NCBI GenBank assembly: GCA_015066715.1 | Contig: SVNU01000002.1 | Location: forward strand, 1 to 64,000 | Source: Ruminococcus sp. | GTDB taxonomy: Bacteria; Bacillota; Clostridia; Oscillospirales; Ruminococcaceae | Direction: 5' to 3' | DNA: 64,000 bases | Shown here: positions 158-34,373 of the stretch, piece by piece | Position numbering within the stretch: the stretch's first letter is position 1 | How the letters are laid out: each line of letters starts with the position of its first letter | The notes under the pieces: model-generated | Told to the model about the DNA's origin: nothing | Database searches by the model: none | The model's input: only the letters and a program-made list of their open reading frames with translations | Translations under genes and position numbers: made by a program

Positions 158-3100
158 TTATTTCATAACAATTCTTTTAAGCGCAATAAGGTCAAATACA
201 TTTATCTTGTTATTGCTGTCCATGTCTGCTGCTTCCAAGAAAGCTACAGCTTTTACCTTTCTGCAAAGGAATTTCTGAAGAAGTACAACATCAGCTGTAT
301 TCACTTCACCGTCTGCATTAAGGTCACCAGGCTGAATATCATCAATACCGCTCTGAAGCTCAAGTGTGCCAAATCCAGAGGTATTAATATAGCCCTGACC
401 TGTAAGGTCGCTCCAGTTTGCAATGCCTGTTCTCTTGCCTTCGCCGTTATCATCGTTAATCTGAACGTCATAACCGATAACCTGACCTGCTGTAAATCCA
501 CCGTTTACTGTCGGAATTGCAACTTCGACAATATAACCGTCCGATGTCTTTTTAGCGGCTGTTGTGTAAATATCAGCAGTTCTGCCGTCTGTAACTGTAA
601 CTTCATTATCGAAGTTTACACGAAGCTGAATATCGTCATTTTCATAGTATGAAGTCTTGCCGTTGTTTTCATCAATGAAAATTTCAACCGTATCCTGCTC
701 ATAGGCATTTGCATTTGCCTTGCTTAAATTACCGTCCTTAACCTCAACAAGTACATATATGTTTTCTGAATCCCACATAGCTCTTGCTGTGGCTGTTGCA
801 CCGTCTGTACCCATTGTGTACTTGTCAACATTGATACTGCTTGTCATATTCCAGCATGCATCAATCTCACCGTCAACTACAGGTGTATTGTAAACGCCGT
901 ATGCTGTAAGAGGCTGTTCGATAAATGTAAGCTTACCGTATACTATATCCTTGCCCTGAATATAATCAAGGGTATTCCATGCATCTTCAAATGCAGGGAA
1001 AATTTCTGTATTTTCAGTAATAATTATTTCAAGCTCAAGAGTTGAATTAGCTTTTACTGCAAACTGAGAAAGGTCAATAGCAACATCGCATGTGTCACCG
1101 CTCTTTACTGTTGCGTTTTTTGAAATATATGATGTTTCTTCACTGTCAGTAATAATGATACTTGCCTCACCATCAACATTTGAATCAAGTCTTATTACTG
1201 CCTTCGAATCATTCCATATTGTTTTAAACGTTGCGTCTGTACCGATTTCATTGGCTTTCTGTAATTTGAATGCCTTTTCGTAATCTTCAGCTGTTCCGTC
1301 ATATTTAAGAGCATTTGCCTTTTTGATTGTCTGAATTTCAGCTTCTGTATCGGCAACTGCATAGAAAGCCGGCTTTGCAGAATAGTCCTTTGCGAATAAC
1401 AGAGGATAACCACCAATCCAGCTTGTGCTGTCTGTAATACCCCAGATAACTACCGCTGTAATATTTACGCCCTCATCCTTGAGTGACTTATAAAGCTTGA
1501 AAACTTCATTGTATCTCTTGGCAAGGTCAAGCTGGTCTTCATCGCTATTTGACTTCTGGTCAATATCAAGCTCGGTAATCTGAACCTCAAGACCTAAGCT
1601 GTCATACTTTCTGATAGCTTCTTCGTAAAGTGAAATTGTAGGACTGCTCATCTTGATGTGTGACTGCATGCCTACACCGTCAATAAGACCTTTTGCCGCA
1701 AGCTCCTTGCACTTTTCATAAATATCGTCTCTTTTTGTTTCGATATATTCGTTATAGTCGTTATAGAAAAGCTTACAGCCTGCTGGCATAATTTCTCTTG
1801 CAAGCTCGAAAGCCTTGTCAATAAATGAATCATCACCGTAAACCGACATCCATGCAGACTGACCGTTTACAGTATTGTTTGAACCGGCATCTCTCATTCC
1901 GCCTGCATCCTTGAATGCTTCGTTTACAATATCCCAGGCGTAGATTTCAAGGTCAGGATACTGTGTTGTAACTGCATTTACCACATTCTTCATATAATTT
2001 TCAAGGCGCTTGTTCATCTTTTCAGGAGTTACCCAGTCTGCTTCTGCATCAAAGTTTTCCTTGAAGAACCAGTCAGGTGTCTGACTGTGCCATACAAAAA
2101 CGTGTCCTCTGACAGGGATACTGTTTTCTTCCGCAAAGCTAAGCAGTGTAGCCGCATTGTCAAGTGTAATCTGCGGATTTGTGTCGTCACCTGTTTCAGC
2201 AAGGTACGCAAGAGTATTCTTGAGATTAAGTGTGCTGTCAGGCTTCAACTCGTTACCTAAAGTAAGGCTGTTATAGTGCTTTTTGATTAAATCCTGTGTA
2301 GCCTTTGTCTGAAGCTCTGTTGCAGTAGCGGCACAGCCAAGCTTGAAGTAGTCAGAATATATATCCTTGAGGGACGGAATATCTTCTTCAATTGCCGGGT
2401 CAGGAAGTCTTTCAGCCGCAACATCGTCAAGGTAGAAATCCATTAGATCTACCGTCTGAACGCTTGCATCAGGCTTATAGCCGGTCTGGAAATAAACAGA
2501 AAAGTTTGAGGCTGTTTCAGGGAGTGTATACTCACCCTCAATATAAGTCCATTCGCCGATATTGGCTGTTGAACTTGCTACCTCGTAGTAATTTTCCTTA
2601 CCGTCCTTCTGATACTGGAGATAAAGTGAAAACTTCTGTGACTGCGGATATTCAATTGTCTCACTGCTGCTCTTGTACTCACCCTTGTACATTACCCAGC
2701 CGCTGAATCTGTAGTAGTTGCCGGCATTGAGCACCAGAGTCTTGTTCGCAGCAGGAGCATTCCAGAGCTGCTGTCTGTTGTAAGTGTAAAGACAATCGCT
2801 GTCATTGTGACCATTACCTGCGGAAATTTCACATTTTGCGTCACCTCTGCCGCTCCAGTCGTTTACACCGTTTTCAAAGTCTTCTGTAAAGCCTTCAACA
2901 GCGTCACCCTCATCATTAGGCTCACCCTCTGCGGCAACATCGTCCACATAGAAGTTGATAAGGTTTGACGGTGTTTCAAAGTATACTGTAATTCCCTGTG
3001 CATCAGAAGGGATTGTATAGTTTGCGCCAACCTTTGTCCATTCACCCTTTTTAGCCTGTACATTTGCGACGCTTTTGTAATTTTCAGTTCCACTTGCGTC

Positions 3101-3454
3101 CTTGTAAAGAACCTGTAAATTAATCTGTTCTGTGTCGTTGCCCTCGTCCTGCATTACATAACCGCTGATATAGTACGTTTTGCCGGCACGAAGCTCCTTG
3201 ATTTTTGCGCAACCTGCACCGTTCCAGTTTTTGACACGGCCCGAAACATAAAGAGACTTTTCCCCGGTATTTGCTGTAGTGTCTACAATTTCGATAGAAG
3301 CGTCACCTCTTGGCGCCCAGCCTCCATAGCCGTCCTCAAATGTGTCCTTAAAAATTTCCACCGTTTCAGCAACCGCTGTAAACGGTAAAACTGCCGCCAT
3401 ACAGAAAACCATCACAGCCGCTGTAAGGCAGGACATAATACGCTTGAATTTCAT
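158..3454 (-). CDS. Secreted GH10 endo-xylanase: two N-terminal CBM22-like modules, GH10 catalytic domain, CBM9-like module, C-terminal dockerin
   Basis: Signal peptide MKFKRIMSCLTAAVMVFCMAAVLPF; GH10 motifs GHVFVWHSQTPDWF, YAWDIVNEAF, VQITELDID; two-repeat dockerin GDLNADGEVNTADVVLLQKFL...DMDSNNKINVFDLIALKRIV. Start set at 3454, downstream of AAAGGAAG. Confidence 0.93.
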   Translation of the reverse strand: MKFKRIMSCLTAAVMVFCMAAVLPFTAVAETVEIFKDTFEDGYGGWAPRGDASIEIVDTTANTGEKSLYVSGRVKNWNGAGCAKIKELRAGKTYYISGYVMQDEGNDTEQINLQVLYKDASGTENYKSVANVQAKKGEWTKVGANYTIPSDAQGITVYFETPSNLINFYVDDVAAEGEPNDEGDAVEGFTEDFENGVNDWSGRGDAKCEISAGNGHNDSDCLYTYNRQQLWNAPAANKTLVLNAGNYYRFSGWVMYKGEYKSSSETIEYPQSQKFSLYLQYQKDGKENYYEVASSTANIGEWTYIEGEYTLPETASNFSVYFQTGYKPDASVQTVDLMDFYLDDVAAERLPDPAIEEDIPSLKDIYSDYFKLGCAATATELQTKATQDLIKKHYNSLTLGNELKPDSTLNLKNTLAYLAETGDDTNPQITLDNAATLLSFAEENSIPVRGHVFVWHSQTPDWFFKENFDAEADWVTPEKMNKRLENYMKNVVNAVTTQYPDLEIYAWDIVNEAFKDAGGMRDAGSNNTVNGQSAWMSVYGDDSFIDKAFELAREIMPAGCKLFYNDYNEYIETKRDDIYEKCKELAAKGLIDGVGMQSHIKMSSPTISLYEEAIRKYDSLGLEVQITELDIDQKSNSDEDQLDLAKRYNEVFKLYKSLKDEGVNITAVVIWGITDSTSWIGGYPLLFAKDYSAKPAFYAVADTEAEIQTIKKANALKYDGTAEDYEKAFKLQKANEIGTDATFKTIWNDSKAVIRLDSNVDGEASIIITDSEETSYISKNATVKSGDTCDVAIDLSQFAVKANSTLELEIIITENTEIFPAFEDAWNTLDYIQGKDIVYGKLTFIEQPLTAYGVYNTPVVDGEIDACWNMTSSINVDKYTMGTDGATATARAMWDSENIYVLVEVKDGNLSKANANAYEQDTVEIFIDENNGKTSYYENDDIQLRVNFDNEVTVTDGRTADIYTTAAKKTSDGYIVEVAIPTVNGGFTAGQVIGYDVQINDDNGEGKRTGIANWSDLTGQGYINTSGFGTLELQSGIDDIQPGDLNADGEVNTADVVLLQKFLCRKVKAVAFLEAADMDSNNKINVFDLIALKRIVMK

Positions 3455-3670
3455 AGCATGACTTCCTTTCATTTTTATACCCCATAATATAACAGTATAT
3501 TATTACATTTATCATTATAGTACAACCACTGTTGAAAGTCAATTATTATCAGCAAATTTGATGTAATTTTATTTAACATGCACAATAACAATGTTGTATT
3601 TAAAGCAAAAATCACAAGAAAATGTTTTTTAAAAGGTCGGTACTTTTCAGAAAATTTTCATTTTTACCCC

Positions 3671-27656: not shown

Positions 27657-28073
27657 ATGTACAAAAAAATAAAATCAGTTGTTAACAAGCTGTGTATTTT
27701 AGTTGTTGCAGCAGTTTTTTGCTCTATGAGTGCTGCTGTTATTGCCGGTTCAGCTGTTAAAGATGATGATATGAAATATACTGTTGAAATAGTTGACGCT
27801 GACAAGGAAGTACTTGATATAATTCCAATCGGTATCGGCGTAAGAGGTGATGCCAACACCGACGGCAAGGTAACTGTAAGTGACGCTTCGCATATTGCAA
27901 GGTATCTCGCAAATATAAGCATCAATAAAAACTATATGCCGGGTTTTAAAGGGTCTCTTGGAGAAGCCATGGGCGATGCTAACGCCGATGGTAAGCTGAC
28001 AGTCAGTGATGCTGCCAAAATCGCAAGATACCTTGCCAAAAAATTTGCAAATCCTGATCTCGGATGGGACTAA
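27657..28073 (+). CDS. Small secreted protein consisting almost entirely of a dockerin
   Basis: Signal peptide, then GDANTDGKVTVSDASHIARYLAN and GDANADGKLTVSDAAKIARYLAKK. Confidence 0.88.
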   Translation: MYKKIKSVVNKLCILVVAAVFCSMSAAVIAGSAVKDDDMKYTVEIVDADKEVLDIIPIGIGVRGDANTDGKVTVSDASHIARYLANISINKNYMPGFKGSLGEAMGDANADGKLTVSDAAKIARYLAKKFANPDLGWD

Positions 28074-28110: not shown

Positions 28111-30358
28111 TTATTTTTTCGCCTTTGCAAGATACCTTGCTATTGCCGCCGCATCAGCTACAGTAACCTTGCCGTCATTATTATAGTCGGCATAAGGATT
28201 TTCGTCTATGCTGATTGTGATGCGTTTTGCAAGTGTTCTTGCGATAAATGCCGCATCACTGACATTCATTTTTCCGTCATTGTTAGCGTCACCAATCGGG
28301 CGTGTTGTGCCTGTTGCGGTAGTTGTTATCAGTGATGTAATGAATGTAGAAACTGTTGTTGCTTCTGTTGACGCCGCTGTTGTAACCGTAGTTGCTGTTG
28401 TATTTGTTGTGTTGGTTGTATCTGAATTTTCAGCTGTTGTATTTGTTGTTTCGGCTTTTGTTGTATCTGAAACGCTTGTTTCTGTTGTTGCAGCAGTTGT
28501 TGTAGTTGCAGCTGTCGTTGTAACGCTTGGGGTTGTCTGTGCAGGTGTATCATCCAGAGCAACGAAGTTTCTGTTGTATTTTTCAGCATACGCCTGAGCT
28601 GTTGAGTTTTTGTAGCCGTAAATTGTACCGCTGAAATAATAGTTATCATACTCAAAGCTATCGCATATTGTTGAAGCAGAATCGTAAATTTCACATTCAG
28701 GGTTTTCTATTGTTATACTTTCAAGATGTAAGCATCCTTTGAACGCTTCACTTCCAATACTTATTACAGTTTCTGGTATTGTTATACTTTCAAGGTAGAG
28801 AGTTGCTAGTGCACCGGATGCTATTCCTCTTGTACCTTCTTTTATTTCTACGGATGTTCCACCATCATAACCAATTATCCATGTATCGGCATAATACACA
28901 GGACCTGTCTGATTATTATGTAATGCTGTGTTAAGAAATGCACCGGAGCCTATACTTGTAACGCTGTCGGAAATCTTTACGCTTTCAAGAGATTCACACC
29001 ATCGAAATGCAGATTCTCCTATACTTATTACACCATCGGGAATTATTATACTTTCAAGAGCTGTACAATAACAGAAAGCACTTTCTCCTATGCTTGTCAC
29101 ACCATCAGGGATTTTGATGTTTGTAAGTGCTGAACAATAGTAAAAAGCATCTCTGCCTATACTTGTTACACCGACAGGAATTGATATACTCGTAAGGCTT
29201 TTGCAATCCTCAAATGCAAAGTCGCTTATAATTTTTACACCGTCTGGTATTATATATGATTCATCTGTTTTAGCCTCAGGATATAGAATTATTTCCGTTT
29301 GTTCTTTATTAAACAGTACTCCATCTATGCTTCTGTAATACGCATTATTTTCAGATACCTCTACACTTTCAAGAGATTCACAATAGCGAAATGCGCCTTC
29401 TCCTATACTTGTTACACCGTCAGGAATTGATATACTCGTAAGGCTTTTGCAATCCTCAAATGCAAAGTCGCTTATAATTTTTACACCGTCAGGAATTATT
29501 ATACTTTCAAGAGCTGTACAATAACAGAAAGCACTTTTTCCTATGCTTGTCACACTCTCCGGTATTGTTATGCTTTCAAGCTTGCGGCAACTTTTAAACG
29601 CTTCATCGCCTATACTTGTAACGCTCTCCGGTATCATTACACTTTCAATCTTTCCGGTACAAAATGCACCGGCTGCTATACTCGTTACATTGTCAGGTAT
29701 CACTGCATCGCCCGAACAGGTCATTCCATCAATTAAAATATTATTTACTATTACAAACGGATTTTCATCCTGTTTTGCGTTAAGCCATGGTGTCATAAGA
29801 AATGCATAAGACCCAATGCTTGTTACGCTTTCCGGTATTGTTATGCTTTCAAGTGCTGCGCATGCATAAAAAGCTGAATTTTCTATACTTGTAACATTTC
29901 TGGGTATTGTTACACTTTCAAGACTGTAACAACATGAAAAGGAACGGCTTTCTATTGTCGTTATATTTTCCGGAATCGTTACACTTTTAAGAGCCTTACA
30001 AAAATAAAATGCATTTTCACCTATACTTGTTATACTGTCCGGTATCTCTACGCTTTCAAGAGATTCACATTCATAAAACGCTTCTGCTGCTATACCGGTA
30101 ACAAGCAAACCTTCAATCTCATTCGGAATATCAACTTCAACTGCCGTTGTATCGCAATCAGTTATTATGACATAATCATATATCCCGTCCTCATCCTCAT
30201 CGACTTTCTTATAAGACAGATAATCTCCGTATTGTTCCTGTTCTCCGTAGGTTTCCGCCTTACCGGTTAAAGGCAGTACCCCCCCCCGAAAAACAAATGT
30301 CCGCTGTACAGAGAATCGCAGCTGTTGCAATTCCAAGCATTCTTTTTGCAATGTTCAT
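28111..30358 (-). CDS. BspA-like leucine-rich-repeat protein with Thr-rich linker and dockerin; frame interrupted by a G9 tract near the 5' end
   Basis: LRR_5 repeats (ITIPESVTSIGxxAFxxC); dockerin GDANNDGKMNVSDAAFIARTLAKR...YADYNNDGKVTVADAAAIARYLAKAKK. Good RBS and signal peptide MNIAKRMLGIATAAILCTADICFSG from ATG 30358 are out of frame with the rest. Confidence 0.85.
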
Positions 30359-32575: not shown

Positions 32576-33868
32576 TTATTTTCCGTTAACCTTATCCCAT
32601 GATGTTCTGCCTGCTGCTACATATCTTGCGATTTTAGCGGCATCTCTTACATCCATTTTACCGTTATCGTCAACATCGGCAAAGAACTGACCTACTTCAT
32701 CAATATCCTTAGTGCCTGCACAATAACGTGCAACTTTCGCCGCATCTCTTACATCAGCTTTTCCATCAACATTTGCGTCACCACGCATGCTTACCATTGA
32801 GCCGATAACCTTTCCGCTCTGTGAATACTTCTTATATACCTTATGCTCCTGATACCGCTCATTTGGTCTTGATGACTCAAATATTGAAATAACTGCATCT
32901 TCAGTATCATAGCTCTCAAATGCTGCATTGCCAGATGAAAAATCAGTAACTGTATTAATCTTAACCTCATATGTGTCATTTGCTGTTGCATCTGCCGGAA
33001 TATGGAAATTAAGATGAACTAATGGATCGCCATCTCTGAATGCTTCATTTGAATATCCTACAAGTGAAACATATGATTTTCCGCCTTCTTCAAAAATACA
33101 GAATGCATTCGCACCTGATACATCCTTGTCTTCAAGTGTAAGTCTTGAATCATATTCAACAAGCATATCAAATGCTGTGCACTTGTTGCTTGAGTGAGGT
33201 ACAAGGTCAACTACCGCTGAATCGCCGGCAACGCCAACTGTACTCTTGAGTCTTAAACCGTCAGTCATCGCCTTTTCAACGCCGCCTGTTACTGTAACTA
33301 CAGCATTCTTTGTTTCATAATTTTCAAAATCATCATAGTCAGTTGAAAAACTTGTAATCTGACTGAAGTTTACAAAATAATCATCATTTTCAGCGCCTTC
33401 AGGAACACGAAGCTTAATAGTAGCAACAGCTTCACCATCCTGATAAGGAGCCGCATCATAACCTACAAGCGAAACATACTTTCTTCCGCTGTCTTCAAAA
33501 TCACATGAAGCCTTAGCGCCGCTAACGCCTACAAATTCAAATCTTGCATCGTATTCAACAAGTAGGTCGTAACAAGTACACTGATTACCTGTATTCATAA
33601 TAAGAGGAATTTCTACAATTTCTCCAACCTTTGCTTTCTTTCCCTGAAGCGCGATTGATACTTCTGATTCAACTTCTTCAATAGAAGTTTTTGATGATCC
33701 ACCCTTGGACCTTCTTGTTGTTCTTGTTGCACTTCTTGCTGTTCTTCCGCCTCGTAATGCCTCAGCGTTCTTCATGCTTGCCGCTGAAGTTGTCATACCT
33801 GTTGCTGATGCTGCCATAAGGGCTGTTGCTAAAACTGCTGAAACCTTCATTAACTTATTCTTTTTCAT
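32576..33868 (-). CDS. Secreted two-cohesin protein with C-terminal dockerin (scaffoldin-like)
   Basis: Two homologous modules (VGEIVEIPLIMNTGNQCTCYDLLVEYDARFEFVGV... and GDSAVVDLVPHSSNKCTAFDMLVEYDSRLTLED...), then dockerin GDANVDGKADVRDAAKVARYCAG...ADVDDNGKMDVRDAAKIARYVAAG. Confidence 0.85.
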   Translation of the reverse strand: MKKNKLMKVSAVLATALMAASATGMTTSAASMKNAEALRGGRTARSATRTTRRSKGGSSKTSIEEVESEVSIALQGKKAKVGEIVEIPLIMNTGNQCTCYDLLVEYDARFEFVGVSGAKASCDFEDSGRKYVSLVGYDAAPYQDGEAVATIKLRVPEGAENDDYFVNFSQITSFSTDYDDFENYETKNAVVTVTGGVEKAMTDGLRLKSTVGVAGDSAVVDLVPHSSNKCTAFDMLVEYDSRLTLEDKDVSGANAFCIFEEGGKSYVSLVGYSNEAFRDGDPLVHLNFHIPADATANDTYEVKINTVTDFSSGNAAFESYDTEDAVISIFESSRPNERYQEHKVYKKYSQSGKVIGSMVSMRGDANVDGKADVRDAAKVARYCAGTKDIDEVGQFFADVDDNGKMDVRDAAKIARYVAAGRTSWDKVNGK

Positions 33869-33920
33869 AATATTTCCTTCTTTCTTCATAAGACAAGGCA
33901 ATTATTGATAATAAAAACAA

Positions 33921-33960
33921 AAAAATCCGCTTAAATCATTCTGTATAATGAAAAGCGGCC
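33921..33960 (-). terminator. Intrinsic terminator in the scaffoldin leader
   Basis: Minus strand CCGCTTTTCATTatacagAATGATTTAAGCGG-ATTTTTTT. Confidence 0.75.
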
Positions 33961-33984
33961 ATATACACTAACCTTAGTGTTAAT

Positions 33985-34066
33985 GTATGCAACCGGCTGT
34001 CATACCGCCCCTCGCGGCTTAGACCCTTGGCTTTGCGTCCTTACCTTTCAATAAGTTTGCCAATTA
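33985..34066 (-). promoter_or_regulatory. Cyclic-di-GMP-I (GEMM-I) riboswitch aptamer
   Basis: Minus strand TTGGCAAACTTATTGAAAGGTAAGGACGCAAAGCCAAGGGTCTAAGCCGCGAGGGGCGGTATGACAGCCGGTTGCA matches the GEMM-I consensus (GGCAAA, GAAA loop, GGACGCAAAGCC, CUA, CAGCCGG). Confidence 0.94.
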
Positions 34067-34314
34067 TTTATTTCGAATATTGAATATACCTTTTACATCT
34101 CTGTTCAATTTGTTTCTGTTTCTTTCTATGTACACATTATAGCACCGTTTCCATTAAATGTCAATGGATTATTCGCAAATTCGTTCATTTAAATCAACAT
34201 CAGTTTATTATATTATGCACACTGCACATTTTTGAGATGTTTTTTAAAATTTGTAATATATTTTCTGTCAAATCATTTAAACCTTAAACGTTTTAAATGT
34301 CCTGTTTATGCATA

Positions 34315-34345
34315 AAGAAGCACCGATCGACATCGGTGCTTCTTT
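34315..34345. terminator. Intrinsic terminator
   Basis: AAGAAGCACCGAT-CGAC-ATCGGTGCTTCTT. Confidence 0.9.
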
Positions 34346-34373
34346 ACTGTTTTTGGTAATTTAAGATACTCTG

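Follow-up and report, generated by a model that had tools for sequence, protein, structure and literature searches.

A stretch of 64,000 nucleotides from a Ruminococcus contig (the window) contains, on its minus strand, what is likely to be a working c-di-GMP-I riboswitch, forming the leader of a single gene. This gene encodes a predicted secreted cohesin-cohesin-dockerin protein of the cellulosome, which c-di-GMP would turn OFF, and the leader probably belongs to a genus-wide c-di-GMP regulon. That regulon would consist mainly of non-catalytic cellulosome parts, that is, cohesin-dockerin adaptors together with dockerin proteins that carry Listeria-Bacteroides repeats and CBM79-like modules. 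The promoter, aptamer, terminator and mutually exclusive folds of the leader, the domain content of the protein and the association across the genus were each established by computation and are described below. The features are collected in Table 1.

Table 1. Features of the putative scaffoldin locus and its predicted riboswitch control (window positions).
Feature	Coordinates	Strand	Basis
Sigma-70 promoter	34136..34164	(-)	-35 TTGACA 34164-34159, 17-nt spacer, -10 TATAAT 34141-34136
c-di-GMP-I (GEMM-I) aptamer	33985..34071	(-)	RF01051, cmscan; covariation in 16 congeners
Antiterminator hairpin (predicted)	33956..33996	(-)	MFE fold of transcript shortened at terminator 5' arm
Intrinsic terminator	33919..33958	(-)	Stem 33958-33927 + U7 tract 33925-33919; folding and sequence
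Shine-Dalgarno AAGAAGG	33876..33882	(-)	Sequence; 7 nt before ATG
ORF, 430 aa, 2 cohesins + 1 dockerin, putative scaffoldin/adaptor	32576..33868	(-)	ATG 33868; Pfam and profiles
Cohesin 1	33338..33658	(-)	PF00963; local profile iE 1e-34 (profile partly built from this domain)
Cohesin 2, approximate bounds	32927..33244	(-)	Second PF00963 stretch; local profile iE 2.4e-21
Type I dockerin	32618..32782	(-)	PF00404, 32-36 bits

The aptamer was found by cmscan as a complete match to RF01051 (model positions 1-87) with a score of 75.6 bits and an E-value of 4.7e-13, the gathering score of this family being 35 bits. It is the only non-tRNA Rfam match within the window. This bears out the full GEMM-I aptamer of the initial annotation, whose range of 33868-34066 covers all of the aptamer but the 5 nt at the start of the model match. 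When 16 congeneric aptamers are aligned, 12 of the 21 Rfam pairs have changed on both sides and 96.4% of cells are paired, a level that none of 500 shuffles attained, while slid controls were 22-52% paired. The core is invariant across the same 16 aptamers. A chance or mis-called aptamer is ruled out by the RF01051 score and the covariation. Judged by its score, by compensatory change and by an expression platform that is predicted to be coupled to it, the element is a c-di-GMP-I riboswitch in class, and the aptamer would be expected to bind c-di-GMP. In riboswitches of this kind, a G at Vc2 position 20 marks c-di-GMP binders rather than cGAMP binders, and the position that we equate with G20 of Vc2 is a G in 16/16 aptamers.

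On the minus strand the order of elements is promoter, a 64-nt spacer, aptamer, a spacer hairpin, terminator, Shine-Dalgarno and ATG. The promoter matches the consensus at 12/12 positions, and a TG precedes the -10 element. All 19 congeneric GEMM-I elements are likewise preceded by a promoter, with 10-12 of 12 matches and a spacer that is always 17 nt. Upstream, a long terminator-like hairpin (34313-34346) separates the scaffoldin leader from the preceding ORF and downstream, the next gene, which encodes rubrerythrin, has a consensus promoter of its own (32411-32383). The scaffoldin gene is therefore probably transcribed alone.

The intrinsic terminator, previously placed at 33921-33960, was recovered by folding, with a CCGCUU...AAGCGG stem and a local dG of about -11 kcal/mol. 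The predicted antiterminator pairs 33996-33979, which is the 3' strand of aptamer P3 (C33996 to U33991 in the Rfam structure) plus the bases that follow, with 33972-33956. It covers the first 3 nt of the terminator 5' arm, an overlap of only 3 nt here. In the ensemble, these segments have 6.9 expected pairs when free and 1.5 when the aptamer is enforced. When the transcript stops at 33947, the ensemble energy is -38.3 kcal/mol if left unconstrained versus -31.4 if the aptamer is imposed. After synthesis of the 3' arm the terminator fold wins (-44.2, MFE), and in the unconstrained ensemble of the full-length transcript the terminator is favored, at -45.7 versus -42.6 kcal/mol for the antiterminator. 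Switching would thus have to be kinetic, with the choice made during transcription. Pairing between the aptamer and the terminator arm is present in the truncated MFE folds of 15/15 leaders with a terminator, the pairing partner in some of them being other than the aptamer 3' end. A duplex test of the antiterminator, which is weak for single leaders, was not significant for this leader alone (p = 0.17) and gave a combined P of about 9e-5 over 13 related leaders. The expression platform is therefore predicted to be coupled to the aptamer, through a terminator/antiterminator arrangement that is exclusive with P3.

In the proposed mechanism, RNA polymerase would start at the consensus promoter and make the aptamer. 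At low c-di-GMP, the GGUU of the P3 strand (33994-33991) and the bases that follow it would pair with GGCC (33960-33957) at the base of the terminator 5' arm. The antiterminator would then form, polymerase would read through and scaffoldin would be made. When c-di-GMP is bound, P3 would be locked, the terminator (33958-33919) would form and the gene would be OFF. As the P3 3' strand doubles as the antiterminator, ligand binding should end transcription, and OFF is the direction that we infer.

The same riboswitch and regulon could instead work in the ON direction, with c-di-GMP favoring read-through and turning on the fiber-attachment parts, an effect that it has on many adhesins. This is unlikely, even if c-di-GMP usually promotes attachment and the ligand-free, full-length leader favors the terminator. 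The sole antiterminator found uses the P3 strand of the aptamer, which is incompatible with a ligand-bound aptamer, and similar pairing to the terminator arm recurs in the other terminator leaders. Class I c-di-GMP switches of Clostridioides difficile are OFF (PMC11477304) but Bc2 of Bacillus thuringiensis, a terminator-linked GEMM-I before the collagen adhesin Cap, was found by experiment to be ON with an antiterminator (PMC4933901), so that direction is not fixed by precedent. OFF is retained here as the preferred direction for the terminator-linked leader.

Some leaders of the genus look translational, namely L080, L081 and L082, which precede single-cohesin cohesin-dockerin genes. In place of a terminator, these leaders carry a hairpin, GCCCUU...AAGAAGGGC, over the Shine-Dalgarno. 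The aptamers of these three leaders share the variant GAUUGCC, and a near copy, AUUGCC or GUUGCC, is found at the start of the hairpin.

The protein downstream was assigned by its domains. PF00963 matches it in two stretches (37.6 bits, cut-off 24.1) and Dockerin_1, PF00404, matches it with 32.0 bits (cut-off 22.9), in agreement with the earlier call of two cohesins and one dockerin. The N-terminus has a signal-peptide-like segment, judged by eye. When a profile of nine congeneric cohesin-dockerin proteins was compared with the PDB, it matched cohesins of R. flavefaciens scaffoldins (5aoz, 5m2o and 5m2s), those of ScaB included, as well as the dockerins 5m2s_B and 5m2o_B and the ScaH dockerin 8ajy. 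An AlphaFold model is good in the cohesin part (pLDDT 72-93 for the block of residues 71-330) and poor in the linker and dockerin. Foldseek with this model returned cohesins first: structures of two cohesins and multimodular ones from cellulosomes were on top and single cohesins had a TMt of about 0.7 (for example 1aoh, TMt 0.74). The immunoglobulin folds lower in the list are generic beta-sandwich matches. By its cohesins and its attachment dockerin, the product is a putative adaptor scaffoldin, which would engage in cohesin-dockerin binding as a member of the cellulosome.

The source genome, a 2.66-Mb draft, has about 84 dockerin and at least 11 cohesin matches in profile searches and encodes a GH48. 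With many dockerins, several cohesins and GH48, the organism is a cellulosome producer, and this content makes "cellulosome" a better fit than "amylosome". The amylosome reading is also not favored by the presence of a GH10-CBM-dockerin enzyme in the window. Besides the scaffoldin gene, the window has three ORFs with a dockerin: that of this enzyme (161-3472), that of a small, 138-aa dockerin protein (27657-28073) and that of a BspA-type LRR-dockerin protein (28111-30351). The nearest loci that have names are from uncultured Ruminococcus metagenome-assembled genomes (RUG12849, RUG14211 and a third), and the RUG names presumably point to a rumen origin.

It is improbable, given this setting, that the aptamer responds to c-di-GMP while its product is a non-scaffold surface protein with cohesin/dockerin contacts, leaving the cellulosome proper unaffected. 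Cohesin and dockerin modules do occur in non-cellulosomal proteins, these cohesins are modestly similar in sequence (11-24%) to those of known structure, and no other cohesin ORF in the genome has a GEMM-I. Against this, a dockerin and cohesins in one protein is the layout of an adaptor scaffoldin, the best solved relatives are scaffoldin cohesins and dockerins of R. flavefaciens, and the dockerins, cohesins and GH48 of the genome and the GH10 enzyme of the window surround it with cellulosome components. An adaptor scaffoldin is thus the reading that is carried forward.

The survey of GEMM-I elements upstream of cohesin genes in related Ruminococcus, which the initial annotation had proposed, covered 11 congeneric genomes, including the source genome, and gave 19 elements above the cut-off. 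Two weak matches below it (G002a and G009d) were left out of the count. These elements repeatedly precede cohesin/dockerin genes: 17/19 are before dockerin genes, the dockerin being present in 16 and lost to a contig end in one. This ratio overstates independence because the loci are related by descent. Nine are before cohesin-dockerin ORFs (class A), in which the number of cohesins is one, two or three. In seven more, the ORF combines Listeria-Bacteroides repeats and Thr-rich linkers with DUF5620 and a dockerin (class B), the truncated gene being an eighth copy. One is before a large secreted M60-peptidase-like protein, and one (L083, G009:C16:2985-3076) has no ORF in the first kilobase downstream. 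A GGDEF gene lies about 1.3 kb from L083, on the opposite strand. The weakest cases are a tandem pair in G009 with low dockerin scores, in which one member has 23.5 bits against the Pfam cut-off of 22.9 and the other has no match with the local dockerin profile, yet aligns with its neighbor. In a profile search, the DUF5620 part of the class B proteins matched the carbohydrate-binding-module structures 4d3l/4v1k/4v1l, which we take to be CBM79 modules of R. flavefaciens. Beta-glucans and xyloglucan are ligands of CBM79-1 from RfGH9 (PMC10992016).

The source genome itself has two GEMM-I elements above the cut-off, the second of which (C24:5903-5986) is also before a dockerin ORF. Extra matches of 14-18 bits in this genome were regarded as noise, weak matches being present in control genomes as well. 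Dockerin-bearing genes are roughly 3.5% of all genes, as estimated from the dockerin count of the genome, and against this background 2/2 elements before dockerin genes has a P of about 0.001. When counted by independent gene families, at least 4/6 have a dockerin, with a P of about 2e-5. Both P values are rough owing to shared ancestry. Most of the regulated set, the CBM79-like dockerin proteins included, would be parts without a catalytic role that serve attachment in the cellulosome. The nine class A proteins, when all are aligned, share no stretch that is conserved enough for a genome scan, and a scan with a four-member class A alignment gave only three loci, which were congeners already known.

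In the wider family, GEMM-I is present in 69/299 genomes. Outside the genus, there are 105 leaders with an ORF downstream; the first such ORF has a hydrophobic N-terminal segment, a crude criterion, in 83/105, and 8/105 leaders lie near a dockerin gene. Six of these eight are in one genus, one is in G168 and one, in G095, is a cohesin-dockerin ORF that is seemingly frame-broken. It follows that GEMM-I before surface proteins is a habit of the family, and dockerin targets are enriched in the present genus. In another genus, GEMM-I precedes dockerin genes at L131 and L132 (G300 and G106) and also at L135 and L137, two of these elements being in tandem in G106 and G300. The targets include at least one transglutaminase-like dockerin protein. 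Tandem GEMM-I elements are also found before large secreted proteins (L157, L170, L180 and L210 in G039; L138 and L184 in G035).

The machinery for making c-di-GMP is present in the source genome as two GGDEF proteins with intact motifs. One of these (L087, G000:C54:2267-4180, minus strand) has a LacI-type sugar-binding domain (Peripla_BP_3, E 6e-24) in the same chain as an intact GGDEF. It is conserved in 9/11 congeneric genomes, including the source genome, with 57-81% identity. As a speculative candidate, it may link sugar sensing to c-di-GMP and supply the signal. A search of the source genome for an EAL protein found none; two HD_5 (HD-GYP-type) proteins are candidate phosphodiesterases. 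A larger circuit can be proposed tentatively, in which intracellular input from the sugar-binding-domain/GGDEF protein might switch the non-catalytic attachment parts through riboswitches, independently of the enzymes, and so rebuild the cellulosome.

One congener, G010 (99% complete), has neither a GGDEF protein nor a GEMM-I match of any strength; all the others have at least one of each. G010 keeps GH48 and cohesins. G002 (64% complete) has one GEMM-I match, below the cut-off. The joint absence in G010, a single genome, is suggestive support for the link between GEMM-I and c-di-GMP. It also bears on a further explanation, namely that the aptamer is a relic, inherited but regulating nothing, or senses another cyclic dinucleotide. 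The thermodynamic bias of the platform to termination would suit a relic. This explanation is nevertheless very improbable in view of the compensatory changes and invariant core noted above, and of the promoter-aptamer-platform layout, which is kept while the platform sequences diverge and fall into two types. The conserved G equated by us with G20 of Vc2 speaks against another dinucleotide.

Taken together, the data suggest that a second messenger decides when non-catalytic cellulosome parts are made, a link that is consistent across the genus. The riboswitch class and the protein families are known, and the regulon linking them appears to be new. A literature search, mostly without subscription papers, so that prior mention is possible, found no paper joining c-di-GMP/GEMM riboswitches with cellulosomes, cohesins or dockerins in a relevant way, and in the literature searched neither c-di-GMP nor a natural riboswitch is tied to the regulation of cellulosomes. 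A 2025 review of cellulosomes has riboswitches only as an engineering tool or design idea for designer cellulosomes (PMC12484212). If the proposal is true, fiber degraders of the gut and rumen would couple the building of their attachment scaffold to c-di-GMP, which elsewhere governs swimming versus sticking. This would provide a handle on fiber adhesion in organisms so far known only from metagenomes, as well as a natural part for designer cellulosomes.

The element resembles others of the RF01051 class in its complete aptamer, conserved core, terminator platform and predicted secreted surface protein downstream; it is unlike them in that the gene controlled is a cohesin-dockerin scaffoldin. 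The C. difficile and Bc2 switches similarly place flagella or surface adhesins under GEMM-I via transcription termination (PMC11477304, PMC4933901), whereas the target here would be the scaffold of a multi-enzyme complex in a commensal fiber degrader, and some leaders of the genus look translational. The cohesin and dockerin profiles match structures of the R. flavefaciens cellulosome, as do the class B modules with 4d3l/4v1k/4v1l. Unlike that system, the present one has a small, two-cohesin adaptor with a predicted c-di-GMP riboswitch of its own, in an uncultured Ruminococcus lineage.
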